A model generated the notes under the pieces. It was not told where the DNA came from. It searched no databases and saw only the letters and a list, made by a program, of their open reading frames with translations. Source: Cnuella takakiae (GTDB lineage Bacteria > Bacteroidota > Bacteroidia > Chitinophagales > Chitinophagaceae). From it: a stretch of DNA of 42,643 nt. This document shows positions 6,295-23,664 of this stretch, in pieces. How positions within the stretch are numbered: position 1 is the first letter of the stretch; each line of letters opens with the position of its first letter. The stretch covers positions 3,477,351 to 3,519,993 of the forward strand of contig NZ_MTFE01000010.1 in NCBI RefSeq assembly GCF_001953305.1, written 5' to 3'. The translations under genes and the position numbers were made by a program.

Positions 6295-6301
6295 CTTTTC
6301 C

Positions 6302-6337
6302 AAACCTTGAAGGTTTCTAAAACCTTCAAGGTTTTTT
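6302..6337. terminator. Bidirectional terminator between tRNA-Gly and trpA
   Basis: A perfect 15-bp inverted repeat (arms 6302-6316 and 6320-6334) with a 3-nt loop runs into TTT on the plus strand. It begins 7 nt after the tRNA and overlaps the trpA stop codon, so it can end both convergent transcripts. Confidence 0.85.
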
Positions 6338-7106: not shown

Positions 7107-7195
7107 CGGGTTTAGCGATTTATTGCTGGCGGAAGGGTTTAGGGCTGATAAAGGAATTAACCTTTATTCTATTCCCTACGCTTTCATTGTATATG

Positions 7196-8413: not shown

Positions 8414-8464
8414 CGTTATCTATTTGCAGCAGCAAAAACACTTTGCCGCCAAAATGGTTACTGT

Positions 8465-9094
8465 TTATTTTATGTGCGACACAAATTCTTGCACCAGTTC
8501 CAGATTCTTAATACCCGGGCTGAGTTCAAACTTGCTATTGATATCCAGCGCAAAAAGGTTTTTTGCTACCGAATCGTGTGTAAAGTTCCTGATCTTTTCC
8601 TCGTCGCCTTTTTCAATACCGCCACTCAAAAAGAAAGGCTTGTTAATCTGCTGTCCCTGCAAAACAGTCCAGTCAAACTTTTTTCCCGTGCCGCCGTAAC
8701 CGGCGCCCATGGTATCAAAAAGGTAGTGGTCGCAGACATCGTCAAAGGGTCGGGTCATCCATTCCACGCTGTCGTTATCACTCAGGCGGAATGCTTTTAC
8801 AACAGATACATAATCGGCCAGGCGGTCGCAATACTTGGGTGTTTCATCGCCGTGTAATTGTACCATCTGCAAACGGCATTCATCTACCAGGTGCAGCACT
8901 TCATCCATAGGCGCATTTACAAACACTCCTACCTTGTTGATGTTGTTAACCTTACGGATCTGCGTGGCGGTCATTTCGCGGAAGACGTACCGGGGACTTT
9001 TGGGATAAAAGATGAACCCGGCAAAGCTGACACCGAGGTCAGCCAGGCTTTCTACCTGGGTCTTCTGGGTCATTCCGCAAACCTTGATTCTCAT
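8465..9094 (-). CDS. trpF: Phosphoribosylanthranilate isomerase
   Basis: Amadori isomerisation of PRA to CdRP in tryptophan synthesis. It is a 209-residue TIM barrel starting with the family motif KVCGMT (C6 is the catalytic Cys). The substrate loop VQLHGDE lies near 78-84, the catalytic Asp region is LFDTMGAGYGGTG, and FLSGGI follows near 159. Its ATG overlaps the trpC stop as ATGA, so the two are translationally coupled. Confidence 0.95.
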   Translation of the reverse strand: MRIKVCGMTQKTQVESLADLGVSFAGFIFYPKSPRYVFREMTATQIRKVNNINKVGVFVNAPMDEVLHLVDECRLQMVQLHGDETPKYCDRLADYVSVVKAFRLSDNDSVEWMTRPFDDVCDHYLFDTMGAGYGGTGKKFDWTVLQGQQINKPFFLSGGIEKGDEEKIRNFTHDSVAKNLFALDINSKFELSPGIKNLELVQEFVSHIK

Positions 9095-9882
9095 ACGCTG
9101 GCTTCATTTAGTGCTGCAACAAACTTCATAAAGGCAAGCGCCGGATCGGGTTGCTTCATAAAGTTTTCGCCAATAAGGAAGCCCTTATAACCATACCTTT
9201 TCAGGTATTGTATGTCAGCTATGGAGTGGATGCCACTCTCCGAAATCTTTATCATGCCCGACGGGATTAGGCTGCTTAAATGTACGGAGGTTTCCAGCGA
9301 TACCTCAAATGTCTTGAGGTTGCGGTTGTTGACGCCTACCACATCCACAAAGTCGTTGATATGGCGCAGCTCGTCTTCCCCATGAATTTCCAAAATCACT
9401 TCCATACCTAATTCGTGGGCCTTGAGCGTGTATTCCTTTACCTGCCGGGGTGTGAGGATGGCTGCAATCAGGAGGATCACATCGGCACCCATGGCCTTTG
9501 CCTCGGTAATCTGGTAAGGATCTACAATGAACTCCTTGCGCAGGATGGGCACTTCATTGATGCGTGCCGCCACCAGGTCTTCGGCCGAGCCGCCGAAAGA
9601 TGGACCATCGGTAAGCACGCTCAAACCTGAAGCACCATTATTGGCATAAGCCGTTGTTACGTCCAACACATCGGCTGCACCATTGATCACCCCCTTTGAA
9701 GGCGACTGCCTTTTAAATTCGGCAATGATACCGGTTCGCTCCGCTTCCAGCAGGAAGCGCTTCAGCGAAAGGGCGGGCCGTAGAAAAAAAGGTTCCTGCT
9801 CCAATGCCGATTCGGGCACTTCGCCTTTGCTTTGGGCAACTTCAATGAGCTTATATCCTACTATTTCTTCTAAGATGTTCAT
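9091..9882 (-). CDS. trpC: Indole-3-glycerol phosphate synthase
   Basis: Closes the indole ring of CdRP to give indole-3-glycerol phosphate. The 263-residue reading begins MNILEEIV, as homologues do, and carries IAEFKRQSPSKG (catalytic Lys region), LRKEFIVDPYQI, ILEIHGE and VGVNNRNL. An alternative ATG at 9918 overlaps the trpD stop (TAATG) and would add 12 residues; that overlap makes coupled initiation there possible, and the sequence cannot decide. TrpC and TrpF are separate here, not fused. Confidence 0.94.
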   Translation of the reverse strand: MNILEEIVGYKLIEVAQSKGEVPESALEQEPFFLRPALSLKRFLLEAERTGIIAEFKRQSPSKGVINGAADVLDVTTAYANNGASGLSVLTDGPSFGGSAEDLVAARINEVPILRKEFIVDPYQITEAKAMGADVILLIAAILTPRQVKEYTLKAHELGMEVILEIHGEDELRHINDFVDVVGVNNRNLKTFEVSLETSVHLSSLIPSGMIKISESGIHSIADIQYLKRYGYKGFLIGENFMKQPDPALAFMKFVAALNEASV

Positions 9883-9917
9883 GGTCTTGTTCTGAGTCGG
9901 TAATGAGTATGCCGGCA

Positions 9918-10910
9918 TTATTGCAAAGCCACCAGCTTTTCCAAACAGGCGCTTGCTTTTCCGCTTTCCAGGCTTTCAACAGCGGCAGCATAGGCCGTGT
10001 CGTAGTCCTTGTACTTGCCGGTGCAATGCAGGGCCATGGCGGCATTGGCCAGCACCACGGCATTTTGTGCCCAGCTGCCCTTGCCGGAGATAATAGTCCT
10101 GAAAATACGGGCTGCTTCTTCCACGGTATTACCGCCATAGATATCCGAAGCCTGTACACTTCGTTTGCCCAACTGCAGCGGCGTCCACACCTGTTCGCCT
10201 TTGTTGGTGATTACTTTTGTGTCGTTGGTCAGCGAAATTTCATCGTACCCATCCAGGCTATGGATGATGGTAAAAGGTTTGCCGCTTTGCTGCAACAGGT
10301 AATTGTAAATGCGCGCCATCTCCAGGTTGTACACGCCTACCAACTGGTATGCTGGATCGGCAGGATTGACCATCGGACCAAGCATGTTGAAGAAAGTACG
10401 CAAGCCAAGATTTTTACGGATGGCCGCAACACTTTTCAGTGCCGGGTGAAACAAGGGTGCATGCAGGAAACAAATACCGGCCTCTTCCAGTTCACGCTGC
10501 AATACATCATTGCTGTTTTTAAACTTATACCCCAACTGCTCCATCACGTTGGAAGCACCGCTCACCGAGGTAGCGCCATAGTTGCCGTGCTTGGCCACCT
10601 TTTGCCCCGCACCTGCAACAATGAAACAGGCCAATGTAGATACGTTGAAGGTGTTTTTGCCATCGCCACCGGTACCTACGATGTCCATTACTTCATACCC
10701 ATTCAGGTCCACAGGTACACAAAGCTCCAGCAACCCCTCGCGGAAACCCTGAAGCTCATCGATGGTGATGCTGCGCATCAGGAATACGGTGATAAAGGCA
10801 GCGATCTCCGTTTCGTTGTATATGCCCTTTCCAATGCCTAAGATGGCCTCTTTCGCCTGTTGTTGCGATAGGGTTTTGTATTCAAATAAGTATTGTAAAA
10901 TCTTTTTCAT
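9918..10910 (-). CDS. trpD: Anthranilate phosphoribosyltransferase
   Basis: Transfers phosphoribose from PRPP to anthranilate. It has 330 residues with the PRPP loop DIVGTGGDGKNTFNVST (about 74-90), KHGNYGATS near 107, and the anthranilate-site Arg region around LGLRTFFNMLGPMVNP. The N-terminal helical domain (1-70) is complete. It is a stand-alone TrpD, not fused to TrpG. The G-rich repeat copy B begins 6 bp upstream of its ATG. Confidence 0.96.
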   Translation of the reverse strand: MKKILQYLFEYKTLSQQQAKEAILGIGKGIYNETEIAAFITVFLMRSITIDELQGFREGLLELCVPVDLNGYEVMDIVGTGGDGKNTFNVSTLACFIVAGAGQKVAKHGNYGATSVSGASNVMEQLGYKFKNSNDVLQRELEEAGICFLHAPLFHPALKSVAAIRKNLGLRTFFNMLGPMVNPADPAYQLVGVYNLEMARIYNYLLQQSGKPFTIIHSLDGYDEISLTNDTKVITNKGEQVWTPLQLGKRSVQASDIYGGNTVEEAARIFRTIISGKGSWAQNAVVLANAAMALHCTGKYKDYDTAYAAAVESLESGKASACLEKLVALQ

Positions 10911-10916
10911 ATCCAG

Positions 10917-10952
10917 CTCCCCCCTGTTCCCCTGACGGTGGAACTTAGGTCA
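10917..10952 (-). repeat. G-rich dispersed repeat, copy B (inverted)
   Basis: Read on the minus strand this gives tgacctaagttcc, a spacer, then aggggaacagggggg, which is copy A with a few changes. It lies 6 bp upstream of trpD. With copy C it forms imperfect inverted repeats of about 33 bp at the two ends of the 199-bp segment 10917-11115. Confidence 0.65.
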
Positions 10953-11081
10953 AACTACCTGCTCTACATTGAAATTGTTTTAAGCAGGTGGTGTGTTTGT
11001 TTTTTATTGTAAATGATGCAAAAAGAAACCTCGTTTTACAACTTCGCCAAAGTACATGTACACTTGATACAAGCACTCCGG

Positions 11082-11115
11082 CTTAAGTGCCCCGTTTAGG
11101 GGGACAGGGGGTGTT
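11082..11115 (+). repeat. G-rich dispersed repeat, copy C, overlapping the trpG 3' end
   Basis: Identical over 18 bp (agggggacagggggtgtt) to copy A and similar further left (ttaagtgcccc against ctaagttccc). Read on the minus strand it encodes the last residues (HPLSP) and stop of trpG, so the repeat appears to have supplied the gene's terminus. Confidence 0.7.
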
Positions 11116-11704
11116 TTAACCAGTTCCTTAAAATCGTTTCCCCTTCGGGTGTAAGCACACTTTCCGGGTGAAACTGCACGCCCTGTACATCGTAGTCCTT
11201 ATGCCTTAGGGCCATGATAAAACCATTGTTATCCAGCGCGGTAATTTCAAGCACTTCAGGGAAGCTTTCTTTGTCTACTACCCAGCTGTGGTACCGGCCC
11301 ACATCAAAGGTTTGGGGCAGGTTGGCAAAAAGGTTGGCTTTTTGATCACCTTCAGCTTTTGCTTTTTGATCTTCCAGTATTTGAACAGGCATAGCTACGC
11401 CATGGTATACCTCGCTCAGGTTGGTGAGTTTGCCGCCAAAAGCCTCGCCGATTGCCTGATGCCCCAAACAAACACCCAATATGGATTTGGTCGCGCCATA
11501 TTGCTTGATCAGGGGCAGCAAGAGTCCGGCTTCTTCCGGAACGCCCGGTCCAGGCGACAAAATGATTTTGTCGTATTCCGCAACCTTGTCCAATGAAATC
11601 TGGTCGTTGCGGTAAACATCTACCTTGGTTCCGGTGATCTTTTCTACCAGGTGCACCAGGTTGTAGGTAAAAGAATCGTAGTTATCGAAAACAAGAATTT
11701 TCAT
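11096..11704 (-). CDS. trpG: Anthranilate synthase component II (glutamine amidotransferase)
   Basis: Class I glutaminase that provides ammonia to TrpE. It has 202 residues with C79 in GVCLGHQ, H179/E181 in VQFHPES and the PGPG loop at 51-54. TrpG and PabA are hard to tell apart, and such subunits can serve both complexes; its place between trpE and trpD supports anthranilate synthesis. The last five residues and the stop codon are provided by repeat copy C. The 94-bp gap to trpE carries a short stretch of GGTGAATSG-like repeats (about 11738-11764). Confidence 0.93.
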   Translation of the reverse strand: MKILVFDNYDSFTYNLVHLVEKITGTKVDVYRNDQISLDKVAEYDKIILSPGPGVPEEAGLLLPLIKQYGATKSILGVCLGHQAIGEAFGGKLTNLSEVYHGVAMPVQILEDQKAKAEGDQKANLFANLPQTFDVGRYHSWVVDKESFPEVLEITALDNNGFIMALRHKDYDVQGVQFHPESVLTPEGETILRNWLKHPLSP

Positions 11705-11798
11705 GTTGATAGTTCTTTGGGCTTGAGGAGGAACAAAGGTGAATCGTCAATGGTGAATGGACTGTGTTTAAAAGATGCACCGGTTAACGTTTTACCTT

Positions 11799-13214
11799 TT
11801 ACGAAATCGTTTCCGCCAGTTTCAACGCCTGCTTCAAGGCATTCAGTTTATTTTCCACTTCCTGCAGTTCGCTTTCGGGGCGACTTGCGGCTACAACGCC
11901 GGCTCCTGCCTGGCAGTATAGGGTATTGTTCTTACTCAGGAATGTACGAATCATGATGGCATGGTTGCAACTGCCGTTGAAACCTACAAACCCAATAGCG
12001 CCGCCATAATAACTGCGGGACGTAGGTTCGTAGCTGTCAATGAGCTGCATGGCCTTGTACTTGGGCGCACCACTCAGTGTTCCTGCCGGAAAGGTTTTCG
12101 CCAACACCGCAAAAGGATTGGTACCGTCGGCTACCTTGCCTACCACTTCACTCACCAGGTGAATAACATGGGAATAGTAATGTACCTGGCGATAATGGGC
12201 TACATGCACACCTGTGCAGACAGTACTCAGGTCGTTGCGGGCAAGATCTACCAGCATCACATGTTCGGCGTTCTCTTTGGGATCTTTCAGGAGTGCTTCT
12301 GCGGCAGCTGCATCCACTGCATCGTCGCCGGTGCGGCGGAAGGTACCAGCAATGGGATGCACCACGGCTTCGCCATTGCGGATGATGATCTGCGACTCGG
12401 GTGAAGAGCCGATCAATTTATAATCGCCATAATCGAAAAAGAACAGGTAAGGTGAAGGGTTGATGTTACGAAGTGCGCGGTAAACATTGATCTCATCACC
12501 AATAAAGGATTGCTGGTAGCGGCGGCTCAGCACGATCTGGAAAACATCACCCCGGTGACAGCTCTGAATACCCTTCTTTACCATCTCCATATAAGCTGCA
12601 TCGCTCATATTGCTGGTTTCCTCTGATACAAGCTTGAAGGGATAAGCAGGTACATCCTTACTGCGGATGATGGATTCTACCAGCTGCAGTTCGCTATCAA
12701 CGCCATCTACGCTGTTTTCACACAACCATAATTCATCTTTGAAGTGGTTGATGGCAATCACGTATTGGTACAGGCGATAACGGGCAAGTGGAATATTGGT
12801 GGTATTGGCCGCATCCTTTTTAAAAGAAACGGTTTCAAAAAGCTGTACTGCATCAAAGGTGCAATAGCCATACAATCCCTGGGCAAATGCTGCTGCACGC
12901 GGGTCGGTGCTTTCTGTTTCAAAGCCCTGCAGAAAACCGTTCAATACATCTTCAATGCGCTGGCCAGCCAGAGCGGTCTTTTGCGGCTCTTGCCCGGGCA
13001 TCTTGTATTCGGCCACCCCGCCATCGCGCACTTCCATACCGGCAATGGCATTGATGCAAATAAAAGAGTAACTGTTCTCCGCTACATGGTGGTCGGTACT
13101 TTCCAGCAGAATGGTATCACGAAAGCGGTCGCGAAGACGCAGGTAAATACCAACCGGTGTGTACAGGTCGGCGAGCATCTTTTTTACCCCGGTCTTGATC
13201 AGCATTTTTTTCAT
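11799..13214 (-). CDS. trpE: Anthranilate synthase component I
   Basis: Converts chorismate to anthranilate with TrpG. At 471 residues it has the N-terminal Trp-binding motif LLES (36-39), which in the family marks feedback inhibition by tryptophan, and the C-terminal chorismate-binding domain with LIGSSPE, HPIAGTFRRTGDD and AGTLSGAPKYKAM. The start MKKMLIKTG fits homologues. It is the first structural gene of the trp operon. Its 196-nt leader holds a Trp-codon peptide and a terminator, so it should be controlled by both feedback inhibition and attenuation. Confidence 0.95.
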   Translation of the reverse strand: MKKMLIKTGVKKMLADLYTPVGIYLRLRDRFRDTILLESTDHHVAENSYSFICINAIAGMEVRDGGVAEYKMPGQEPQKTALAGQRIEDVLNGFLQGFETESTDPRAAAFAQGLYGYCTFDAVQLFETVSFKKDAANTTNIPLARYRLYQYVIAINHFKDELWLCENSVDGVDSELQLVESIIRSKDVPAYPFKLVSEETSNMSDAAYMEMVKKGIQSCHRGDVFQIVLSRRYQQSFIGDEINVYRALRNINPSPYLFFFDYGDYKLIGSSPESQIIIRNGEAVVHPIAGTFRRTGDDAVDAAAAEALLKDPKENAEHVMLVDLARNDLSTVCTGVHVAHYRQVHYYSHVIHLVSEVVGKVADGTNPFAVLAKTFPAGTLSGAPKYKAMQLIDSYEPTSRSYYGGAIGFVGFNGSCNHAIMIRTFLSKNNTLYCQAGAGVVAASRPESELQEVENKLNALKQALKLAETIS

Positions 13215-13293
13215 CTTGTTAATTCAGCTTTTGCCAGGCCCTATGCCTTGCACCTTTGGAATTGTATTTGAATGATGCTACAGATTAATGCAT

Positions 13294-13319
13294 AAAAAAA
13301 GCCCCGAACTCGTCGGGGC
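13294..13319 (-). terminator. trp attenuator terminator
   Basis: On the minus strand GCCCCGA (13319-13313), a 5-nt loop and UCGGGGC (13307-13301) form a 7-bp GC-rich stem followed by seven U residues. It lies about 80 nt upstream of trpE and 43 nt beyond the trpL stop. Confidence 0.93.
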
Positions 13320-13362
13320 CTGAATATCGTTGATGGAAACAGATAGGACAGTACAAACCCCG

Positions 13363-13410
13363 TTAAGCGTTTGAATGCCACCACCACTGAATATTGTTCA
13401 TCTGTTTCAT
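13363..13410 (-). CDS. trpL: trp leader peptide with three tandem Trp codons
   Basis: A 15-codon open frame reads MKQMNNIQWWWHSNA, with TGG TGG TGG at 13386-13378 and a TAA stop. Tryptophan is normally about 1% of residues, so three in a row in a short frame between a promoter and a terminator ahead of trpE is strong evidence for a regulatory leader peptide. The ATG lies only 7 nt after the predicted -7 box, so translation probably starts on a leaderless or nearly leaderless mRNA. Confidence 0.92.
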   Translation of the reverse strand: MKQMNNIQWWWHSNA

Positions 13411-13417
13411 CGTGTTG

Positions 13418-13449
13418 CAAATATGCGCCAGAGAATATTATTGAACAAA
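13418..13449 (-). promoter_or_regulatory. Promoter of the trp operon
   Basis: Minus-strand TTTG (13449-13446), a 20-bp spacer and CATATTTG (13425-13418) match the Bacteroidota consensus TTTG-N17-23-TAnnTTTG with one mismatch. It overlaps the upstream region of the divergent acetyltransferase gene. Confidence 0.65.
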
Positions 13450-13478
13450 TATTTTTTAGCTTTAAAAAATTCCTAACC

Positions 13479-13766
13479 ATGCAGATACAGCACCGCATTT
13501 CCGGAACCCATGGATTGTTTTATGTACCCGGCGAAGAAGACGAAGGCCCGCTTGCCGAACTGGTATATGCTACAACCAACGATGGCCAGATGATTATTGA
13601 GCATACCGAAGTGGATGAAGAACTCCGTGGACAGAACGTAGGCTATGAACTGGTACATGCCGCCGTGGAACATGCCCGTCAGTACGATATGAAAATAAGG
13701 CCGGTTTGCCCTTTCGCTAAAGCCATATTCGACAAGAAACCTGATTTTGCAGATGTGCTTGCGTAA
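13479..13766 (+). CDS. Small GNAT-like acetyltransferase (Acetyltransf_CG type)
   Basis: A 95-residue protein of the compact GCN5-related family (PF14542 style). The core runs from LVYATTNDGQMIIEHTEV through LRGQNVGYELVHAAVEHAR (acetyl-CoA loop) to the characteristic end KIRPVCPFAKAIFDKKPDFADVL. Substrates of this family are largely unknown. The ATG at 13479 is preferred; an open frame extends upstream through the trp leader but has no protein-like character. It is divergent from trpE, with 69 bp between its ATG and the trpL ATG, and is the only plus-strand CDS in the his/trp region. Confidence 0.88.
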   Translation: MQIQHRISGTHGLFYVPGEEDEGPLAELVYATTNDGQMIIEHTEVDEELRGQNVGYELVHAAVEHARQYDMKIRPVCPFAKAIFDKKPDFADVLA

Positions 13767-13880
13767 AGGTTTTTGGTTTAAATTTTTTTTATCGGGTAAC
13801 CACAAGCAGGTTATTTAAAACCATTAAGAGCACTTTGTCAACAGCAATATCAAGGAATTAACCTGGAACAGAAATAAAAA

Positions 13881-13910
13881 GAGGCTGTCTCAAACATATG
13901 AGACAGCCTC
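13881..13910. terminator. Bidirectional terminator, acetyltransferase / catalase
   Basis: A perfect 12-bp stem (gaggctgtctca / tgagacagcctc) with a 6-nt loop, flanked by CTTTT on the plus strand and TTTTTATTT on the minus strand. It lies between convergent genes. The rest of the 181-bp gap is AT-rich with no other feature seen. Confidence 0.88.
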
Positions 13911-13947
13911 CTTTTAATAAAACAACTAAAAACAAAAAACCAACAAC

Positions 13948-15576
13948 CTAGTAAGGCTTTGATTCTTTGGATTGGTCCTCTGCGGCTCTGACAGCATCGC
14001 CCGACTCGCTGGAACCAATAGGGCCATGTTGCCCGTTCGATCCCATTTTCCTGAGCCCTTCGGCAACCCTGCGGCCATAATCGGCATCACACTGGGTGAA
14101 CAGTTCGATCATTTTATCCTGTATAGGCTTAGCAGCAGGTGCCAGGGTATTCACCAGGTTTTTAATCAGGTCGTCCCTTTCCCAATCTTCGAAATTGCGG
14201 TAAGTTTCACCCGCCTGGCCAAAATTATTTTGGCGGTCTATTTTCTGGCGCACCTTGCGGGCATTGTAATGGGGCTCGTGGTCGGGACCGGTACGGGGCG
14301 CTTCCACATAACCGCCCATGCTGGAAGGTTCATAGTTTACATGTGGGTTTAAGCCCGGCATGATGTCCTGGCGGTAAGCCATCTGGCCATCGCGCTGGTT
14401 GGTTGCAACGTTTTTGCGCGGTGCATTGATGGGCAGTTGCAGGTAATTGGTACCAACACGGTAGCGCTGTGTATCGCTATAGGCAAAAGTTCGGCCGATG
14501 AGCATTTTGTCATCTGAGAAGTCAAGCCCATCCACCAAAACACCGGTTCCAAATGCGGATTGCTCTACCTCTGCAAAATAGTTGATGGGGTTGCGGTCCA
14601 GCACCATCCGACCTACAGGCAACCAGGGAAACTGCTCTTTAGGCCACAGTTTGGTATCATCCAACGGGTCAAAGTCCAGCTCAGCGTGTTCGTCATCGCT
14701 CATGATTTGGACAAACAGTTCCCATTCGGGGAATTGACCTTGCTGTATATGCTCAAATAGATCCTGGGTTGCGTGGTTGAAGTTTTTGCCCTGGATGGCT
14801 TCAGCCTGGTCCTGTGTCAGATTTTTGATGCCCTGTTTGGGTTCAAAATGGTACTTCACCAATACAGCCTCGCCCTTATCATTTACCCATTTGTAGGTAT
14901 TTACGCCACTTCCCTGCATCTGGCGGTAGTTGGCCGGAATACCGAAGGGCGAAAACAGGAAGGTGATCATGTGCATCGCCTCAGGCGTATTGCTGATAAA
15001 ATCAAATATGCGCTCGCCATCCTGGATATTGGTCACTGGGTCGGGCTTGAAAGCATGCACCAGGTCGGGAAACTTCATCGCATCGCGGATAAAGAAAACC
15101 TTGAGGTTATTGCCTACCAGGTCCCAGTTACCATCTTCGGTATAAAACTTAACGGCAAATCCACGTGGATCGCGCAAAGTTTCGGGCGAGTGCCCGCCAT
15201 GGATTACCGAGGAAAAGCGTACAAAGACAGGCGTGCGTTTGCCTTTTTCCTGAAACAGTTTGGCTCTTGTGTATTTGGACACCGGCTCCTCGCCTACCGA
15301 TCCGTAAGCTTCAAAATAGCCGTGGGCACCTGCGCCCCGGGCATGTACCACACGTTCTGGGATACGTTCGCGGTCGAAATGGGACATCTTTTCCAGAAAC
15401 TGGTAGTTCTCCAGTGTTGCCGGTCCGCGGTTTCCAATCGTGCGGATGTTTTGGTTATCTACTACAGGATGGCCCTGGCGGGTAGTAAGCTCCTGGGTGG
15501 GCTTGCCGGCGCCATTGCCGTTTTGCTTGCCATTCTGGTCTTCTGGCAGGCCAGGAATGATCTGGTTGTGGTGCAT
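13948..15576 (-). CDS. Monofunctional haem catalase
   Basis: Dismutates hydrogen peroxide. The 542-residue protein has the distal His H78 ([12 protein letters not shown]), Asn N156 (DLVGNN), the [13 protein letters not shown] segment (129-141) and the proximal haem ligand Y366 in [12 protein letters not shown]. The single-domain length without a C-terminal flavodoxin-like domain fits the small-subunit (clade 3) catalases. The open frame extends 51 codons upstream through the terminator at 15682-15714, so the ATG at 15576 (MHHNQIIPG) is the sensible start. About 50 polar residues precede the conserved core, and no signal peptide is seen. It sits between hisB and the trp operon with no pathway link. 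Confidence 0.95.
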
Positions 15577-15681
15577 AAGGGTGCATTTGGGTGAACAAAC
15601 GAACTGAAACCAAGGGTTCAGCGCATTGGTGCGGCAAACTTGGTGCCATGCCCCGATAGGTAGCCCTAACCAGTAGGACCA

Positions 15682-15714
15682 ATAAAAACAAAGCCCCGGG
15701 CCAAAGACCGGGGC
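15682..15714 (-). terminator. Terminator after the secreted 132-aa protein gene
   Basis: Minus strand GCCCCGG, a 7-nt loop, CCGGGGC, then TTTGTTTTTATT. It ends the upstream gene 20 nt after its stop codon and separates it from the catalase. Confidence 0.85.
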
Positions 15715-15734
15715 AACACACACAAGCAAAGGAA

Positions 15735-16133
15735 TTACATAGCTCTTTTCAGTTCTTCACGAGCCAGGATGTACCGGGTCATAAAGATGCCGAGGCTGTT
15801 TTGGTTGGGGCTCAGCGAAAGCGGGATGATCTGCTCCACCTTCCAGCCATCATTGGTATATTGTTTCAGGGTGCGCAGCACCTTGTCTTCATTCTCTTTG
15901 ATGTTTCCGAAATTGATACCAGCCATGCTGAACAGGTTGTTCAGTTCGGCCTCAGTTTGCGTACCATCGGGGTGGGTAACGATCATACGGGAGCGGCCAA
16001 GGCCTCCGGCCACCACCGACTCGATGGTAGTTACCTGCATGAATTGTTTGGGTACAGCGGGTTTGGTTTCCTGGGCAAAGGAACTTAGGCCCATAATGGT
16101 GATAAGCAGCAGCAAGAAAGAAAACTTTTTCAT
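15735..16133 (-). CDS. Small secreted protein of unknown function
   Basis: A 132-residue protein with a clear Sec signal ([21 protein letters not shown]). The mature part carries a segment [25 protein letters not shown] and a C-terminal block ([17 protein letters not shown] ... YILARE) that resembles short Bacteroidota proteins with a predicted alpha/beta fold; I do not recognise the family. An ATG 10 codons upstream (16163) is possible, but the signal peptide starts at 16133. It is probably monocistronic: a good promoter lies at 16188-16217 and a terminator follows directly. Confidence 0.8.
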
Positions 16134-16187
16134 AACGGTTGTTTGGTTTTGGGTGATAGCCACCTGCGTGGCTTTTTAATGCTGCAG

Positions 16188-16217
16188 CAAAACTAATGGC
16201 CCTAAAAAATGCAGCAA
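16188..16217 (-). promoter_or_regulatory. Promoter of the secreted 132-aa protein gene
   Basis: Minus strand TTG (16217-16215), a 19-bp spacer and TAGTTTTG (16195-16188) match the TAnnTTTG consensus exactly. The predicted transcript start is about 50 nt upstream of the ATG at 16133. Confidence 0.65.
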
Positions 16218-16270
16218 GGTCCGCATGTATGAACGGTGGAAACAATGGTATGAAGCAGGCAAATTGTAAA

Positions 16271-16323
16271 CTGCATTAACAAAAAAGCGGAAGCCCAGTG
16301 CTTCCGCTTTTTTGTTAATGCAG
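16271..16323. terminator. Long perfect hairpin downstream of hisB
   Basis: A 24-bp perfect inverted repeat (arms 16271-16294 and 16300-16323) with a 5-nt loop and an internal CGCTTTTTTGTT, the form of an intrinsic terminator whose U-tract is paired with the upstream A-tract. It lies about 150 nt after the hisB stop in a 338-bp gap, which also holds the promoter at 16188-16217 and nothing else I can identify. Confidence 0.8.
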
Positions 16324-16471
16324 GATTGAATAGTTGGTATCAGAAAGGTATATGTTGGTATGACCAAAGATGTCGAATAACAACAGAAGGCCGCGATTAG
16401 TCGCCAGCTGCCTATAGTCCATATTCCATGGTCTTGCAGTTTCCTGAACTTTAGATGAACTCTTTAAATGC

Positions 16472-17611
16472 TTAGAGTACACCTTTGGTACTGGGCAACT
16501 GGTTGCTCAGCGGATCACGTTTAACAGCCATCTTGATGGCTTTTGCAAAAGCTTTGAAAATTGCTTCAACCTTATGATGCTCGTTCTCGCCGCGGCATTC
16601 AATATTAAGGTTGCACTTGGCGGCATCAGAGAAAGACTTGAAGAAATGGAAGAACATTTCTGTTGGCATGTCCCCGATCTTTTCCCTGCTGAAAGAGGCA
16701 TTCCAAACGATCCAGTTGCGCCCGCCGAAATCAATCAGCACCTTGGCTTCGGCTTCATCCATGGGCAGGGCAAAACCGTAGCGTTCAATACCCCGTTTGC
16801 TGCCTAAAGCTTTTCCGATGGCTTCCCCCAAAGTGATGCCGGTATCCTCAATGGTGTGGTGTTCATCTATGTGCAGGTCGCCTTTTGCATGCACTTTAAG
16901 GTCCATCATACCATGGCGGGCAATCTGGTCGAGCATGTGATCAAAAAAGCCCAAACCAGTTTTGATATCTGCCTTTCCGGTACCATCCAGGTTAATAGTC
17001 ACCTCGATCTGAGTTTCGGAGGTATTGCGGCTATGCACCACTACCCTTTCTCCCAGTTTAAGATATTCATAGATGGCCTTCCAATCTGTTGTTTCCAAAG
17101 CCACCGATGGACGCAGTTCTTTGATGGCATCCTGCAGTTCACCCGCACCCAATGCCGGATCCTGGTTCAGCCAGATGGCCTTGCAACCCAGGTTCTTGGC
17201 CAGTTGCACATCGGTGATGCGGTCGCCGATAACATAAGAACCAGCGATATCGTATTGCGCAGGATCGAGGTACTGCATCAGCATACCGGTACCAGGTTTA
17301 CGGGTAGGCTGGTTTTGGTGCGGGAAACTGCGGTCGATATGCACGGCGCTGAAATGCACGCCTTCATTGGCAAAAGAAGTGAGGATATGCTGGTGCAGTG
17401 GAAGAAAATCAGCCTCTGGAAAACTATCTGTACCCAGGCCATCCTGGTTGCTCACCATCACCAGTTCAAAGTCCAGCTCGGAAGCAATCTTTTGCATGTA
17501 GGTAAATGCATAAGGGTAAAACTCCAGCTTTTCCCAGGCGTCTATCTGGTAGGTAGGCGGCGCTTCTTTGATGAGGGTACCGTCGCGGTCTATAAACAAA
17601 ACTTTCTTCAT
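16472..17611 (-). CDS. hisB: Bifunctional histidinol-phosphatase / imidazoleglycerol-phosphate dehydratase
   Basis: Carries out steps 6 and 8 of histidine synthesis. Residues 1-170 are a HAD phosphatase with the nucleophile motif DRDGTL (D8, D10) and the zinc-type loop around [18 protein letters not shown]. Residues about 185-379 are the dehydratase with [22 protein letters not shown] and the later [12 protein letters not shown]. The fused form is known from enterobacteria and many Bacteroidota. The start at 17611 ([11 protein letters not shown]) is chosen over an upstream ATG that adds 20 unrelated residues. It is separated from hisC by two unrelated genes and 82 bp after the cytochrome gene. 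Confidence 0.95.
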
Positions 17612-17693
17612 GAAGGTAGTTGGCGTTAGCAGTGAAATGATGATGGCTTGCCTATTTGGTGCGTAGCACAATTTTGAACAAGGCTTGCCTGGC

Positions 17694-18122
17694 TTATTTT
17701 TTACCTCTTTGGGCTTTTACTTCGGTAGGGGTTACAGCAGCGGCTTTGTTGCCAAATGAATTGCGCACATAAGTGAGCACATCGGCAATCTGCTGGTCGG
17801 TGAGGTGACTCATGGCAGGCATGGCATTGCTCCAGGTGTCGCCATCAATTTCCACTTTACCTTGTGAGCCGTTCAGCACAAGTTGTACCAGCCTGGGCTT
17901 GGGACCAGCCACCCACTCGTTGGGTGTAAGTGGCGGGTTTAGGTGCGGCACACCACTGCCGTCCACCTGGTGACAGGCGAGGCAAATGGATGTGTAAACC
18001 GTTTTGCCCCGCTCCATTACCGCGGCTGCAGGTTGTGCAGCTTTGGTTGCAGGTTTTTTTGTTTGGGCGTGGGCGCTGCTCAGCAACCCGGAAAACAAGA
18101 CAACAAAAAATATAGAACGCAT
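17694..18122 (-). CDS. Periplasmic c-type cytochrome
   Basis: A 142-residue monohaem cytochrome c. Residues 1-20 are a Sec signal (ends SSAHAQ). The haem motif is CLACH (C47, C50, H51), and M101 or M104 (NAMPAMSHL) is the likely sixth ligand. An Ala/Lys-rich linker lies at 21-35. It starts 3 bp after the sugar dehydrogenase gene, so it is probably that enzyme's electron acceptor, as in other dehydrogenase/cytochrome pairs; this pairing is inferred from gene order. Both genes interrupt the his genes between hisC and hisB. Confidence 0.9.
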
Positions 18123-18125
18123 GGT

Positions 18126-19397
18126 TTATTGTTTATAACTGATTTTCCAAACGGTACCCTTTGCATCATCGGTAACATAGAGGGCGCCATCGGGTCCCTG
18201 TGCCAGACCGCATGGGCGGTATTGCGCTTGGTTAGGTGTGGCAATTTCAGCGGCACCCATGAAGCCTTCGGCAAAAGTTTCCCACGGACCAGCAGGTTTG
18301 CCATCCTTAAAAGGAACAAAAGCTACAAAATAGCCCTTTTGCGGCAGGGGTGCCCGGTTCCAGGAACCATGGAAAGCGATGAAGGCACCGTTGCGGAAAC
18401 GCTCCGGGAACAAGGTGCCGGTATAAAACAAAAGGCCGTTTGGTGCCATGTGACCGGGGAACGCAATCACCGGCTGTTCTACGCCTGCACAACGATCCTG
18501 TTTTTTCCCGTCCCCACCGTATTCGGGTGCCAGCATTTTTTTGTTTTGCAGGGGATCGTAGTAGCAGTAAGGCCAGCCAAAATTGGCACCCGCCTGTTTT
18601 ACTTCAAACATTTCCTCGGCAGGCACTTCGGCACTCTTTGCCGAATCATACAATTCAGGAAAAAGATTACTGAGCTGGTCGCGGCCATGCTGCATTACAA
18701 ACAGTGAATTGGTTGCCGTGTTCCAATCAAGTCCAACCACGTTGCGCACACCCGTGGCATAACGCACCCCATCGGCATAGGTTTGATTGGGTTTATCGGC
18801 TTTGAACTGCCAGATGCCGCCGGCACTATCCAGTATGGGGCAGGGGTCCTGACCTGGTGAACCCTTGGTTCGGTCTTTTACCTGGCAGGCATTGGAAGGC
18901 GCACCAATATTCACGTAAATATTGCCGGCATTGTCCAGGGTCAACGATTTGGAATTATGTGTTCGCTTGTCCCACAGGCCTGTTACAATCAGCTCAGGTT
19001 TATCAATGTCGTTGATCTCGTTGCGCTCATTAAGCTTGTACCGGAAAATTTCGCTGTTGCTGGAAGCATACAGGTAACCATTTTTAATGACCATTCCCGT
19101 ACCGGGATACTCGGCAAACGAAGTGATCTTGTCGGCCTTGCCATCGCTGTTCAGGTCGCGGAGGCCAACAATGCCTTTGCCTTCTTTAAGCTTACCCAGT
19201 TTTACATAAATATCACCATTGCTGTTAACGGCAATGTGTCGTGCCTGGCCCAGGTTTTCGGCAACCACAGTTGCAGTAAAACCCTGTGGCAGGCTGATGG
19301 CAGCAGCCTTATTTACCATACGCGTAGTGTCGTTGGCAAAGGCAGTAGCTGATGCTATTACTGCGGCCAGCACACCGGCAAAGGATCGTAGTTTCAT
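18126..19397 (-). CDS. PQQ-type sugar dehydrogenase (sorbosone dehydrogenase family)
   Basis: A 423-residue exported beta-propeller of the soluble glucose/L-sorbosone dehydrogenase family. After a Sec signal (MKLRSFAGVLAAVIASATAFA) come blade motifs such as GFTATVVAENLGQARHIAV, YATGVRNVVGLDW, MQHGRDQL, ANFGWPYCYYDP, FIAFHGSWNR and GPDGALYVTDD. The substrate is not predictable. The ATG at 19397 fits the signal peptide; a TTG at 19418 overlapping the hisC stop would add seven residues and could allow coupling. No transcription stop is visible between hisC and this gene, so it probably depends on the his promoter. Confidence 0.87.
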   Translation of the reverse strand: MKLRSFAGVLAAVIASATAFANDTTRMVNKAAAISLPQGFTATVVAENLGQARHIAVNSNGDIYVKLGKLKEGKGIVGLRDLNSDGKADKITSFAEYPGTGMVIKNGYLYASSNSEIFRYKLNERNEINDIDKPELIVTGLWDKRTHNSKSLTLDNAGNIYVNIGAPSNACQVKDRTKGSPGQDPCPILDSAGGIWQFKADKPNQTYADGVRYATGVRNVVGLDWNTATNSLFVMQHGRDQLSNLFPELYDSAKSAEVPAEEMFEVKQAGANFGWPYCYYDPLQNKKMLAPEYGGDGKKQDRCAGVEQPVIAFPGHMAPNGLLFYTGTLFPERFRNGAFIAFHGSWNRAPLPQKGYFVAFVPFKDGKPAGPWETFAEGFMGAAEIATPNQAQYRPCGLAQGPDGALYVTDDAKGTVWKISYKQ

Positions 19398-19414
19398 ATG
19401 CTTTGTTTTTGCAA

Positions 19415-20476
19415 TCAAACAGTTGAAGCAGCAAATGTTTTAACCTGTTCCACCAATTCCCTGTTTTCGGCTTCGGTGCCGATGGTTATGCGGAGGCAGC
19501 CCACACACAACAACACACTGCTCCGGTTACGGACTATGATGCCTTTTTCAACCAGGAAGTTGTATAGGCCGTTGGCATCGGGCACTTTAACCAAAATGAA
19601 ATTGGCATCGGAGGGATAAACTTTTTCTACAAAAGACAATTCAGAAAAAGCTTTTGCTAGGTTTTCCCTTTCAGTTACCAGCTCCTGTATCATGGTGTTC
19701 ACCCCATCCAGGTTATCGAGTGCCTTCATGGCCAGTTCCTGCGTGGACTGGTTGATATTATAAGGCGGTTTGATCTTGTTGAGAACACTGATTATTTCAG
19801 TTGAAGCGATGGTCATGCCCAAACGAAGCGCTGCAAGACCCCATGCTTTTGAAAAGGTTTGCAGGATCACCAGGTTGGGATATTCTGCAAGGTCCTTGAT
19901 ATAAGAACGCTGCCGACTGAAGTTGATATAGGCTTCATCCACTACAACCAGTCCATCAAAGTTATTGAGGATCATTTCCACGTCCTCGCGGTACAGGCTA
20001 TTGCCGGTTGGGTTGTTGGGCGAACAAAGGAAGATCATTTTTGTTGCCGCATCCACAGCACCTTCAAGTGCTTCAAGGTCCAGTTGGAATGCAGGCGTAA
20101 GCGGAACGGCTTTGTAGGCCACATTGTTGATATTGGCATATACTTCATACATGCCATAGGTAGGCGGGCAAATGATGATATTATCCAACTGTGGTTCGCA
20201 GAAAGCACGAATCAGCAGGTCAATACATTCATCCGAACCATTACCCAAAAGGATGTTTTCAGGTTGGGTAGCCTTGATGCCGGCAATCTTTTTTTTCAAG
20301 TCCCACTGGAGCGGATCGGGATAGCGGTTGTACCACCTGGTGAGCGGGGAGCCCAGGCTGTTTTCGTTTGCGTCGAGGAATACACGGGCCTCACCTTTGA
20401 ACTCATCGCGGGCAGATGAATAAGGTTTTAGTTTCTTGATGTTATCGCGGATAAGATTGTTGATATCGAAGTTCAT
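19415..20476 (-). CDS. hisC: Histidinol-phosphate aminotransferase
   Basis: PLP-dependent step 7 of histidine synthesis. The 353-residue class I/II aminotransferase has LDANENSLGSP (34-44), LGNGSDE (77-83), CSPNNPTGN (151-159), VVDEAY (178-183) and the PLP lysine K210 in TFSKAWG. ATG at 20476 is chosen; another ATG five codons upstream is possible. A 121-bp gap to hisD shows no convincing terminator or promoter. Confidence 0.95.
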   Translation of the reverse strand: MNFDINNLIRDNIKKLKPYSSARDEFKGEARVFLDANENSLGSPLTRWYNRYPDPLQWDLKKKIAGIKATQPENILLGNGSDECIDLLIRAFCEPQLDNIIICPPTYGMYEVYANINNVAYKAVPLTPAFQLDLEALEGAVDAATKMIFLCSPNNPTGNSLYREDVEMILNNFDGLVVVDEAYINFSRQRSYIKDLAEYPNLVILQTFSKAWGLAALRLGMTIASTEIISVLNKIKPPYNINQSTQELAMKALDNLDGVNTMIQELVTERENLAKAFSELSFVEKVYPSDANFILVKVPDANGLYNFLVEKGIIVRNRSSVLLCVGCLRITIGTEAENRELVEQVKTFAASTV

Positions 20477-20597
20477 GATGATATTTTGCACGCAATGCTT
20501 TCTTAAACATCACGGATGATTAAAGGAATGACAGGATGGTATTGAAAGAAAGTAAGCTTTCCCTTAACAAGGTTAAGCATCACAGGTTGCAACCGCA

Positions 20598-21875
20598 TCA
20601 ATGTCGCACCCTGACCCTTACTGCTTCAGCATGTGCTTCCAATCCTTCCGCTTCGGCCATTGCCACAACCGTAGGTGCAATGGCTTGCAGCCCTTCCACG
20701 CTCAACTTTTGGTAGGTAATCTTTTTCACAAAAGAATCTACACTCACACCACTGTAAGCCCTTGCAAAAGCATTGGTGGGGAGGGTATGATTGGTACCCG
20801 AAGCATAATCGCCTGCACTTTCAGGCGAGTAGTTGCCTATAAAGACGGAGCCCGCATTGGTGATCCGGTCGCCAACTTCATCAGCTTTATCGGTGCAAAT
20901 GATCAGGTGCTCGGCAGCATATGCATTCACCATTGCCACGGCATCCTCCAGGTTGGCCAGTACCACAGCCTTGCTGTTATCGAGGGCCTTGGCAGCGAAG
21001 TCTTTTCGGGGCAGCCGTTCCAACTGGCTGGCCAGTTCGGCATTTACCTGATCCAACAAACCTGCAGCAGTAGTTACCAGCAGCACCTGGCTATCGGGAC
21101 CGTGTTCGGCCTGCGACAGGAGGTCGGCAGATATGAAGGCAGGGTTGGCAGTCTCGTCCGCCAGTACGCATACCTCGCTTGGACCTGCAGGCATATCGAT
21201 GGCAACACCCTGCATTTGTACCAGTTGTTTTGCAACTGTTACATATTGGTTGCCGGGTCCAAAGATTTTATATACCGAGGGAATGCTTTCGGTACCCAAA
21301 GCCATTGCGGCAATGGCCTGTGCTCCGCCCACTTTATAGATGCGGGAAACACCGGTTTGCTGTGCGGCAAACAGAACAGCAGGATGCACTTTGCCATCCT
21401 TGCCACAAGGGGTACACAATACCACTTCGCGGCAGCCGGCCAGTTTTGCCGGTATGGCCAGCATCAGCACGGTGGAGAACAGGGGCGCCGTGCCACCCGG
21501 AATATACAGGCCTACTTTATCGATGCCCACGCTCCTGCGCCAGCAATGAATGCCGGGCATGGTTTCCACCACTTCTGTTGTGGACAGTTGGCGGGCATGG
21601 AAAGTTTCGATATTTTTTTTTGCCTGCACTATTGCAGCTTTCAATTCTTCTGAAAGCTGGCCGGCAGCGGCAGCAATTTCTTCTGCGCTTACCTGCAGGC
21701 TGTCCAGGGCAACACCATCAAATTGTTGTGCAAAACCGTACAAAGCGGCATCGCCTTTTTCCTTAACCGCTGCCAGTATGTGTTGCACCGACTGCAATAC
21801 GGCGCTATTGTCAACATAAGGCCTTTGCAAAATCTGTAGCCATTGTTCCCGGCCTGGATTATCTAAAATCTGCAT
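20598..21875 (-). CDS. hisD: Histidinol dehydrogenase
   Basis: Zinc-dependent NAD oxidoreductase that carries out the last two oxidation steps to histidine. It has 425 residues. Family signatures are VGLYIPGGTAPLFSTVLM (about 124-141), KIFGPGNQYV, MPAGPSEV, the zinc/active-site region DLLSQAEHGPDSQ and, near the end, ASGTNHTLPT. The ATG at 21875 matches homologues; the frame stays open 27 codons further up through a TCACCA-type repeat and that part is not protein-like. It is followed by hisC and preceded by hisG after 103 bp. Confidence 0.96.
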   Translation of the reverse strand: MQILDNPGREQWLQILQRPYVDNSAVLQSVQHILAAVKEKGDAALYGFAQQFDGVALDSLQVSAEEIAAAAGQLSEELKAAIVQAKKNIETFHARQLSTTEVVETMPGIHCWRRSVGIDKVGLYIPGGTAPLFSTVLMLAIPAKLAGCREVVLCTPCGKDGKVHPAVLFAAQQTGVSRIYKVGGAQAIAAMALGTESIPSVYKIFGPGNQYVTVAKQLVQMQGVAIDMPAGPSEVCVLADETANPAFISADLLSQAEHGPDSQVLLVTTAAGLLDQVNAELASQLERLPRKDFAAKALDNSKAVVLANLEDAVAMVNAYAAEHLIICTDKADEVGDRITNAGSVFIGNYSPESAGDYASGTNHTLPTNAFARAYSGVSVDSFVKKITYQKLSVEGLQAIAPTVVAMAEAEGLEAHAEAVRVRVRH

Positions 21876-21883
21876 GTAGAAAC

Positions 21884-21933
21884 TGTGAAAGGTAAATGGT
21901 GAGTAAGGAAAGTGACTGGTGAGTAGTGATTGG
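21884..21933. repeat. Degenerate heptamer-like repeat between hisG and hisD
   Basis: The stretch has repeated GGTRAGTRR / GTGAYTGG units (ggtaaatggtgagtaagg, gtgactggtgagtagtg). A shorter relative occurs between trpE and trpG (about 11738-11764). Such GGTGAATGGTGAG runs are common between genes in Bacteroidota. Confidence 0.5.
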
Positions 21934-21978
21934 TTAAACCACTTTGCGCAAATCAATCCCTTTAATCACCGGTTCGGT

Positions 21979-22833
21979 TTACATGATCATCTTTTCAATG
22001 GGCACTACCAAAATGCCTTCTGCACCGGCGGCTTTCAGTTGCTCGATCTTATCCCAGAACGCATCTTCTTCAATCACACTATGTACCGAGCTCCAGCCCG
22101 ATTCGGCCAGGGGCAATACCGTGGGGCTGCGCATACCGGGCAACAGGCTTACAATGGTTTGCAGCGATTGCTCAGGCGCATTCAACAACACATATTTGTA
22201 GCGCTTTGCTTTGCGCACGGCACGTATGCGGAACACCAGTTGGTCGAGCAGTTGTTGCTGTTCGGCAGGCAGCTCCTTTCCTTTGATCAGCACCGCCTGG
22301 CTTTGCAGGATGGGCTGCACTTCTTTGAGGCCATTCATAAAGAGTGTTGAGCCGCTGCTCACCAGGTCGCACACCGCATCGGCAAGACCGATACCTGGCG
22401 CAAGTTCCACAGAACCGCTGATCTCGTGAATTTCGCAGTCTACGCCATTTTCTTTCAAAAACTGCTGCGTAAGAAAAGGATAGCTGGTTGCGATTTTTTT
22501 ACCCTGGAGAAACTGCGGACCGGTATACTCGTCGTTTTTGCCTACGGCAATAGAAAGGCGGCATTTACCAAAACCTACTTTCTCTACGATGTCTACCGTC
22601 TTGTTTTTTTCGTATAAAACATTCTCGCCAACAAAGCCGATATGGGCTACGCCATCTTCCACGTATTGCGGAATATCGTCATCGCGCAGGAAATACACTT
22701 CTACCGGAAAGTTCTCCGACATGCTCTTGAGCTGGTTGTGGCCGTTCTTTACATTGAGGCCACAATCGTTCAGCAGTTTCATCGAGTCGTCGTGCAGGCG
22801 GCCCGACTTTTGAATGGCTATTTTCAGTTTCAT
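21979..22833 (-). CDS. hisG: ATP phosphoribosyltransferase, long form
   Basis: First, committed step of histidine synthesis (ATP + PRPP to PR-ATP). The 284-residue length and a C-terminal region (about 210-284: LLNAPEQSLQTIVSLLPGMRSPTVLPL) match the long form with its own ACT-like regulatory domain, so no HisZ is needed and histidine feedback is expected. The catalytic core includes QKSGRLHDDS and the PRPP-binding segment SGSVELAPGIGLADAVCDLVSSGST. The correct ATG is at 22833. The frame is open to 22920, but that part is the his attenuator RNA. The start lies only 13 nt past the attenuator stem, with no Shine-Dalgarno sequence. Confidence 0.96.
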   Translation of the reverse strand: MKLKIAIQKSGRLHDDSMKLLNDCGLNVKNGHNQLKSMSENFPVEVYFLRDDDIPQYVEDGVAHIGFVGENVLYEKNKTVDIVEKVGFGKCRLSIAVGKNDEYTGPQFLQGKKIATSYPFLTQQFLKENGVDCEIHEISGSVELAPGIGLADAVCDLVSSGSTLFMNGLKEVQPILQSQAVLIKGKELPAEQQQLLDQLVFRIRAVRKAKRYKYVLLNAPEQSLQTIVSLLPGMRSPTVLPLAESGWSSVHSVIEEDAFWDKIEQLKAAGAEGILVVPIEKMIM

Positions 22834-22842
22834 AAAAACAAA

Positions 22843-22872
22843 ATAAAAAGGCCTACCTCGCGGTAAGCCTTT
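22843..22872 (-). terminator. his attenuator terminator
   Basis: Minus strand AAAGGCUUACC (22872-22862), the tetraloop GCGA and GGUAGGCCUUU (22857-22847) form an 11-bp stem with one G-U pair, followed by a U-rich tail that runs into the hisG start. Confidence 0.93.
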
Positions 22873-22904
22873 AGTTATGTAACAATACACAAAACACCAG
22901 CGGC

Positions 22905-22958
22905 TTACCCGGCAAGGCAAGTATGAGCATTGTGGTGGATATGTACGAGTGTGATCAT
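22905..22958 (-). CDS. hisL: his leader peptide with four His codons
   Basis: A 17-codon frame reads MITLVHIHHNAHTCLAG with His at positions 6, 8, 9 and 12 and a TAA stop that is part of the antiterminator arm. Four His in 17 codons, between a consensus promoter and a terminator just ahead of hisG, is the signature of a regulatory leader. The ATG lies 9 nt downstream of the -7 box, so the 5' UTR must be very short or absent. Confidence 0.92.
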   Translation of the reverse strand: MITLVHIHHNAHTCLAG

Positions 22959-22967
22959 TTTGTGCCG

Positions 22968-22998
22968 CAAAAATAAGGGCCGCAGCGGAAGCAGCAAA
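22968..22998 (-). promoter_or_regulatory. Promoter of the his operon
   Basis: Minus strand TTTG (22998-22995), a 19-bp spacer and TATTTTTG (22975-22968) match the Bacteroidota TTTG-N19-TAnnTTTG consensus at every fixed position. Confidence 0.8.
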
Positions 22999-23100
22999 TT
23001 TTTATTAGGCCGTAACAAAAAATTCATCTGCCGTCAATTTTGCAAAGTTGCAACGCCCAAAGCCGTTGCGCCGTCTTAACTTCCGTAACACAAAACATAG

Positions 23101-23511: not shown

Positions 23512-23535
23512 AGGACAATAGGGGAATAAAAAAAT

Positions 23536-23630
23536 GGCAGGCTACTCACATCGCACCGCTACAACCGCCTACCCTTGCTACCTTCCGGTCCTGGGGGAGT
23601 TCAGCAGGAGCTGGCCGTATGAGACCTGCC
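23536..23630 (-). ncRNA. ffs: Signal recognition particle RNA, small bacterial type
   Basis: On the minus strand a 95-nt RNA is closed by GGCAGG (23630-23625) and CCTGCC (23541-23536). It contains the diagnostic SRP domain IV loop, GACCGGAAGGTAGCAAGGG (within 23572-23590), very close to the GGTCCGGAAGGAAGCAGCC of E. coli 4.5S RNA. A TTTTTTTATT tail follows at once and serves as the terminator. This RNA pairs with Ffh for co-translational membrane targeting. The exact 5' end may be a few nucleotides further out. Confidence 0.93.
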
Positions 23631-23634
23631 GCTG

Positions 23635-23664
23635 CAAATATAGGGAGCTGTAACTGATTACAAA
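23635..23664 (-). promoter_or_regulatory. Promoter of the SRP RNA gene
   Basis: Minus strand TTTG (23664-23661), an 18-bp spacer and TATATTTG (23642-23635) match the consensus exactly. The -7 box ends 4 nt before the closing stem of the RNA. Confidence 0.75.

Follow-up and report, generated by a model that had tools for sequence, protein, structure and literature searches.

We begin by considering how hisG is controlled in Cnuella takakiae, and whether the short region before it holds a histidine attenuator. In enterobacteria, a leader peptide with a run of His codons precedes hisG, and its RNA forms alternative antiterminator and terminator hairpins. Attenuation upstream of hisG is stated for E. 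coli and S. enterica in PMC8305728. The window, that is the whole stretch of Cnuella takakiae DNA that was analysed (42,643 nucleotides), carries hisG on its minus strand. The original prediction placed a complete his attenuator at 22843-22964, immediately before the gene; these coordinates fit the layout given below, to which the strand and a promoter-like element (22975-22968), both absent from that claim, are added. The features are as follows, in the direction of transcription.

22995..22998, minus strand: candidate -33 element TTTG, read from the sequence, 19 nt upstream of the -7 element
22968..22975, minus strand: TATTTTTG, a match to the Bacteroidota -7 promoter element TAnnTTTG, its position conserved in relatives
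22959..22963, minus strand: predicted 5' UTR of about 5 nt, the putative start at 22963 taken from the placement of the element in F. psychrophilum
22905..22958, minus strand: leader ORF of 17 codons, peptide MITLVHIHHNAHTCLAG, with ATG at 22958-22956 and stop TAA at 22907-22905
22915..22921, minus strand: arm 1 (CUUGCCU), which in the fold, without a ribosome, pairs with 22910-22904, overlapping arm 2
22902..22909, minus strand: arm 2, GGUAAGCC (GG-UAA-GCC), on the leader stop codon; 5' strand of the antiterminator
22862..22872, minus strand: arm 3, AAAGGCUUACC; 3' strand of the antiterminator and 5' strand of the terminator
22862-22869, minus strand: GGCUUACC, the partner of arm 2 within arm 3
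22847..22857, minus strand: arm 4, GGUAGGCCUUU; 3' strand of the terminator
22834..22846, minus strand: T-rich tract UUAUUUUGUUUUU, up to the hisG ATG, read from the sequence
21979..22833, minus strand: hisG (Pfam HisG and HisG_C)
16472..21956, minus strand: rest of the presumed unit, by gene assignment hisD, hisC, a GSDH-like gene, a cytochrome c gene and hisB

The leader peptide has His at codons 6, 8, 9 and 12, in agreement with the 17-codon, four-His leader that had been proposed, and nine nucleotides lie between TATTTTTG and its ATG. The terminator, AAAGGCUUACC-GCGA-GGUAGGCCUUU (22872-22847), has 11 pairs, including one G.U, and a loop of four; the T-tract that follows is interrupted. The minimum-energy fold of the region (22834-22964) contains this terminator together with the 1:2 hairpin, a long hairpin in which the strand of the His codons pairs with the stretch after the stop codon. 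It also pairs the leader start with the T-rich tract, a pairing that the attenuator model does not need. The fold of the region is more stable than those of all 200 dinucleotide shuffles (200/200, z -3.94). The pairings behind the proposed competition between an 8-bp antiterminator and an 11-bp terminator, whose U-tract runs to the hisG start, are borne out by the sequence and by the conservation described below. At the level of sequence and pairing, the site combines the features of an attenuator: a run of codons for one amino acid, an intrinsic terminator, an antiterminator that excludes it, and biosynthetic genes for the matching amino acid.

The site is, in our judgement, very probably a ribosome-mediated transcription attenuator, whose RNA would begin at or near the leader ATG. 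RNA polymerase would start at the leader ATG or a few nucleotides from it, so that the ribosome would load at the very 5' end. When charged His-tRNA is scarce, the ribosome would stall on the His codons and open the hairpin that keeps arm 2 bound to arm 1 and to the His-codon strand. The freed arm 2 (GG-UAA-GCC) would then pair with arm 3, the terminator would be blocked, and hisG and the genes that follow would be transcribed. When histidine is plentiful, the ribosome would arrive at the stop codon and, since this codon is the core of arm 2, would cover that arm; arm 3 would pair with arm 4, and transcription would end before hisG. In the absence of a ribosome, the 1:2 hairpin should likewise favour termination. 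We infer the start site, and likewise that the leader is translated, that ribosomes stall on it and that histidine governs the outcome; the distances on the RNA agree with the scheme. Counted from the A of the leader ATG as +1, the His codons occupy 16-18, 22-27 and 34-36, arm 2 occupies 50-57, the stop codon 52-54 and arm 3 87-97. A ribosome covers about a dozen nucleotides ahead of its A site, so on any of the four His codons it would leave arm 2 free, and at the stop codon it would cover arm 2 but not arm 3.

The next question is "do other genomes keep the leader?" A hisG gene was detected in 90 of 148 related genomes, and 88 upstream regions were used (L009-L096; G041 and G049, with partial hisG matches only, were excluded). 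In 72 of the 88 regions (one of them, L095, is doubtful) the same strand carries, at most 350 nt upstream of hisG, an ORF in which four or more of eight codons are for His, compared with none of the 88 on the opposite strand. By the same criterion the next-commonest runs on the same strand are of Leu (23/88) and Ser (13/88); Met runs appear on the reverse strand of 43 of the 88 regions, and we take these as the complement of CAT runs. The 16 regions that have no ORF with four His in eight codons include two from the same genus, one in which no leader is seen (L042) and one whose leader has three His (L030). In a second collection of genomes a His leader precedes hisG at 67 of 80 loci and is absent at 13; 70 of these loci count as new, since a 180-nt piece of each has no exact match in the first set, and the leader is present at 59 of the 70. 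Short ORFs are common, and the leader could in principle be a chance ORF adjoining an ordinary terminator; this notion is contradicted by the strand comparison (72/88 and 0/88) and by the covariation of the terminator reported below, and we regard its probability as close to nil.

The closest named relative found, Paracnuella aquatica (HisG 89% identical), has the leader MINLVHIHHHAHTCLQG and the same GGTAAGCC at the stop codon. The leader peptide is conserved at the sequence level as well (HIHHH). The search was also extended over the phylum, where 213 genomes gave a hisG match and a sample of 64 loci (L177-L243 minus three repeats), 40 of them hand-chosen for spread over families, was examined. 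Here 45 of the 64 loci have an ORF with at least four His in eight codons within 400 nt, some of these ORFs being long and doubtful (L226, L227, L238); on the reverse strand four His are reached at a single locus of the 64 (L226). At three loci of the sample (L183, L187, L190) the leader peptide ends in HHFHHSS* and a GAG-rich stretch follows the stop codon, suggestive of another family with an antiterminator of different design.

We turn our attention to the pairings. A hairpin with a T-run lies between the leader stop and hisG in 71 of the 72 regions, and 70 of these are below -6 kcal/mol. The placement of the antiterminator on the stop codon can be followed across these loci with an 8-nt window that reaches from two bases before the leader stop to three bases after it (the stop register). 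This window pairs fully with the 5' arm of the terminator in 39 of 71 loci, compared with at most 9 of 71 for full 8-nt pairing at any other offset from -30 to +30. The stop codons of the 39 loci are TAA (19), TAG (15) and TGA (5). The UUA of arm 3 can pair with each of the three, in two cases via a G.U pair, and this tolerance can explain why arm 3 hardly varies. Pairing in the stop register is incomplete in the other 32 loci, 12 of which have 7 of the 8 pairs. In 11 of the 32, a full 8-nt arm sits 4-26 nt upstream of the stop register, often with the same GGTAAGCY or GGTGAGCC in another reading frame; since the stop then comes after the displaced arm, a ribosome ending there could still cover it.

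An alignment of 46 leaders (A1) was chosen from the 60 that hold CTTAC (60 of 71 terminators do). In A1 the terminator is 98.5% paired, and its covariation score is reached by none of 500 shuffles. The antiterminator reaches 98.1% pairing, compared with 54.8% or less in slid positions, a figure favoured by the selection of A1 from the CTTAC-holding set; its covariation score is reached by 10 of 500 shuffles, with little variation there to test. The 1:2 hairpin is 73.0% paired against at most 46.0% when slid, and in A1 its covariation does not exceed that of shuffles. From ATG to terminator, the leaders are moderately stable (median z -1.95, with 34 of 70 below -2), and RNAalifold predicts the terminator alone from the full alignment. 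When the arms are swapped between genomes, at least one of 69 foreign partners pairs with arm 3 as well as the genome's own does in 69 of 70 genomes, an uninformative outcome because the arms are nearly invariant. The DNA and its comparison among genomes provide the open reading frame with its run of His, the pairing of arm 2 with arm 3 and of arm 3 with arm 4, the register of the stop codon, and the spacing of the promoter element taken up below. The original prediction had named a comparison of hisG leaders in related genomes as a check, and the outcome favours it: the His ORF (72/88, then 59/70) and the pairing are kept in most relatives, the stop register pairs fully in 39/71, and the terminator covaries. 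Histidine attenuation ahead of hisG is to this extent supported by comparative evidence.

A profile search of the Cnuella takakiae genome with the model R1 gives one strong match, at the his site (87 bits, E 1.1e-14); the next one has 31.6 bits (E 0.019). At an E-value no higher than 0.01, R1 matches 167 of the 195 family genomes; the E-values are rough, the 195 include genomes used to build R1, and some of the matches are asd, aminotransferase or trpE leaders. The weaker R1 matches examined in 11 genomes lie at asd (7), aminotransferase (3) and trpE (1) genes.

Similar leaders are indeed found at other genes. The window itself contains a second attenuator-like leader, MKQMNNIQWWWHSNA, ahead of trpE (ATG 13410, minus strand), with a CAnnTTTG element 7 nt before the ATG and a terminator, GCCCCGACGAGTTCGGGGC plus a T-run, near 13300. 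A WWW leader precedes trpE in 29 of the best 30 trpE matches in relatives (in the control, two Trp in eight codons are reached on the reverse strand in 4 of 30), and in 24 of these 29 leaders an element lies 4-8 nt before the start, mostly CAnnTTTG and not the strict TAnnTTTG. A Lys-rich leader (KHTKRTKK-type) is found ahead of asd, the gene for aspartate-semialdehyde dehydrogenase, in 20 of the best 30 asd matches in relatives, where leaders were picked for Lys and Arg content and counted on the same strand alone; the script arrives at 21 by including L315, which is not Lys-rich, and at L302 the leader lacks the element. The asd leaders are accompanied by a loosely defined -7 element and a terminator. 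The one in Cnuella takakiae is MTIQKHIKRTKKHNSTGEGA, with an element spacing of 8 nt (L288, G000:C1 about 741160), and Lys-rich asd leaders with a near -7 element and a terminator are seen at L288 and L289-L311.

At four loci (L277, L281, L285, L322) a leader containing Lys and Tyr codons stands before an aminotransferase gene. The first three have a scaffold like GGTAAGCC/GGCTTACC in common with the his attenuator, as if a single scaffold had served twice. A general aminotransferase leader was dropped as a candidate, with 3 of 30 upstream regions passing the script and one of them plausible (L322). A 400-kb scan of the Cnuella takakiae genome revealed no further convincing amino-acid leader.

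These other leaders bear on the possibility that the terminator is under the control of a protein or RNA acting in trans, the His-rich peptide being a functional small protein, for example a metal-binding one. The conserved peptide sequence (HIHHH) would be expected of such a protein, and a trans-acting leader peptide is reported for S. meliloti in PMC7298713. The WWW leaders of trpE and the Lys-rich leaders of asd share a like layout, however, and the placement of arm 2 on the stop codon is a trait of RNA switching and not of a peptide, so we hold control in trans to be very improbable.

Returning to the attenuator itself, we consider where its RNA begins. The promoter consensus of Bacteroidota is TTTG / TAnnTTTG (PMC7366714). 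According to PMC9723704, the element spans -12 to -5 in F. psychrophilum, and leaderless mRNAs make up 5.5% of those examined; of the 5' UTRs of B. thetaiotaomicron, about 3.7% are shorter than 10 nt (PMC7366714). If the F. psychrophilum placement applies here, the start would be near 22963 and the 5' UTR about 5 nt long. For the leader start in relatives, the ATG nearest upstream of the His run was taken (failing that, GTG or TTG), a choice blind to promoter motifs. Among 80 leaders with at least three His, the strict TAnnTTTG ends 4-10 nt before the start in 51, for which the same placement predicts 5' UTRs of 0-6 nt; of the remainder, one has a spacing of 11 nt, 16 have 14-20 nt and 12 have no such motif within 45 nt. 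As background, 400 kb of the Cnuella takakiae genome were scanned; of 199 candidate first genes there, a single one has the motif 3-10 nt upstream and only 11 have it within 112 nt at all, counts that are blurred by the longest-ORF choice of start codons there. In the 80-locus second collection the spacing is 4-10 nt in 55 of 67 leaders; starts there were picked for the shortest spacing, and this figure is not counted as evidence.

Taken together, the transcript seems to begin almost at the first codon of the leader peptide, as read from motif placement. The alternative is that the attenuator is real, the TAnnTTTG near its ATG is not the promoter in use, and the RNA has an ordinary 5' UTR. The start at 22963 is indeed a predicted one, the strict motif is missing within 45 nt of the 12 leaders above, and many distant loci have a spacing of 16-26 nt (e.g., L192, L202, L208, L209, L213, L214), which means that short spacing is not universal in the phylum and is dispensable for function. 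Against this stand the 51 of 80 leaders with the motif at 4-10 nt, compared with 1 of 199 first genes at 3-10 nt, the similar, looser element close before the trpE and asd leaders, and the TTTG 19 nt further up in the window. We find an ordinary 5' UTR possible but rather unlikely, and retain the start at or near the leader ATG.

How does the site relate to known systems? The original prediction had pointed to the Rfam His_leader model (RF00514), and here it fails: there is no match at gathering score in the window and none to E 10 in 22780-23010. Over the whole Cnuella takakiae genome the best RF00514 match has 30.4 bits, and 0 of 18 matches lie at hisG; among 14 control genomes the model exceeds its cut-off in one. 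The T-box (RF00230) is absent from the two gathering matches of the window and from the nine matches to E 10 in 22780-23010. No Rfam leader family reaches threshold at the site, the best sub-threshold one being Phe_leader (28.1 bits compared with 55). These results support the view that the site works like a his attenuator yet is no member of RF00514. With the enterobacterial attenuator it shares the His-run leader before hisG and the alternative hairpins; it differs in its short putative 5' UTR and perhaps in an antiterminator arm built on the leader stop codon. The classical E. coli-type logic of attenuation looks genuine, judged from these pairings, in an RNA of different design.

Attenuators of the Rfam type are supposed in PMC3766115 to have possibly arisen in gamma-proteobacteria, with very few horizontal transfers. 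For Flavobacteriaceae, PMC9723704 (2021) describes a structured 5' element upstream of hisG with no Rfam match and strong clues for leader-peptide attenuation before amino-acid operons; owing to this element and these clues, the idea of leader-peptide attenuation is not new to the phylum. The flavobacterial element, compared by its description only, is like ours in phylum, in position and in the lack of an Rfam match. The attenuator RNA of S. meliloti trpL has its 5' end at the leader peptide ATG (PMC7298713) and is thus alike in being leaderless; it differs in phylum, in its amino acid, tryptophan, and in a 5' end that is known, whereas ours is deduced. In bacilli, His leader peptides with a premature terminator lie ahead of hisS/hisZ (PMC2965389, 2010), sharing the His run and premature terminator outside Proteobacteria but differing in gene and phylum; the main text of that paper has no occurrence of "Bacteroid-". 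Distant loci of family f25 have other leaders (QLHHHHFH-type) and, where the motif is found, a longer spacing. Among the literature matches listed, in which subscription papers are thinly covered, none describes an attenuator from Chitinophagaceae or a leader peptide before asd. Nor do those matches describe this his RNA design or its start beside the promoter element.

We would give even chances to a broader proposal: Chitinophagaceae, and some other Bacteroidota, may have a family of his, trp and asd attenuators with leaders on leaderless or nearly leaderless RNA, in which the his stop codon is the heart of the antiterminator and explains the near-fixed GGCUUACC. Bacteroidota are reported to lack Shine-Dalgarno sequences or to make little use of them. 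The site would let the coupling of leaderless translation to transcription be studied in a natural setting, in a phylum whose promoters are unusual, and it places a clear, widely conserved amino-acid attenuator in Bacteroidota, beyond the reach of the Rfam His_leader model. It suggests an annotation rule for the his leader family (TAnnTTTG, then 4-10 nt to the leader ATG, with the leader stop within the antiterminator), and it points to the Lys-rich leader ahead of asd, which has no description among the literature matches listed.

Finally, we examine which genes the attenuator would control. With a threshold of -9 kcal/mol, the scan detects no terminator from hisG to the end of hisB, one terminator follows hisB at about 16286, and one strict TAnnTTTG lies inside the presumed unit (19964, within hisC). 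The unit plausibly consists of hisG-D-C, the GSDH-like gene, the cytochrome c gene and hisB, ending at that terminator, its extent being drawn from gene order, spacing and the lack of a detected terminator; on the same grounds, the earlier suggestion that the genes inserted after hisC are included is plausible. Beyond hisB come a catalase gene, trpE-G-D-C-F-B-A and then hisH, hisA, hisF and hisIE. A His-run ORF is not seen just before hisH when the sequence is read by eye, and attenuation plausibly extends from hisG to hisB and leaves out the second his block.

Several smaller observations concern the neighbourhood. On the minus strand (2857-22833), the trp genes and the catalase gene split the his genes into two blocks, between hisB and hisH. 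The GSDH-like dehydrogenase gene and the cytochrome c gene lie between hisC and hisB (19418-17694, minus strand), and the ORF coordinates give the former a 4-nt overlap with the end of hisC. Between trpA and hisH the opposite (plus) strand carries a tRNA gene (6222-6294), and a Bacteroidales small SRP RNA (93.1 bits) is found at 23531-23638 on the minus strand.
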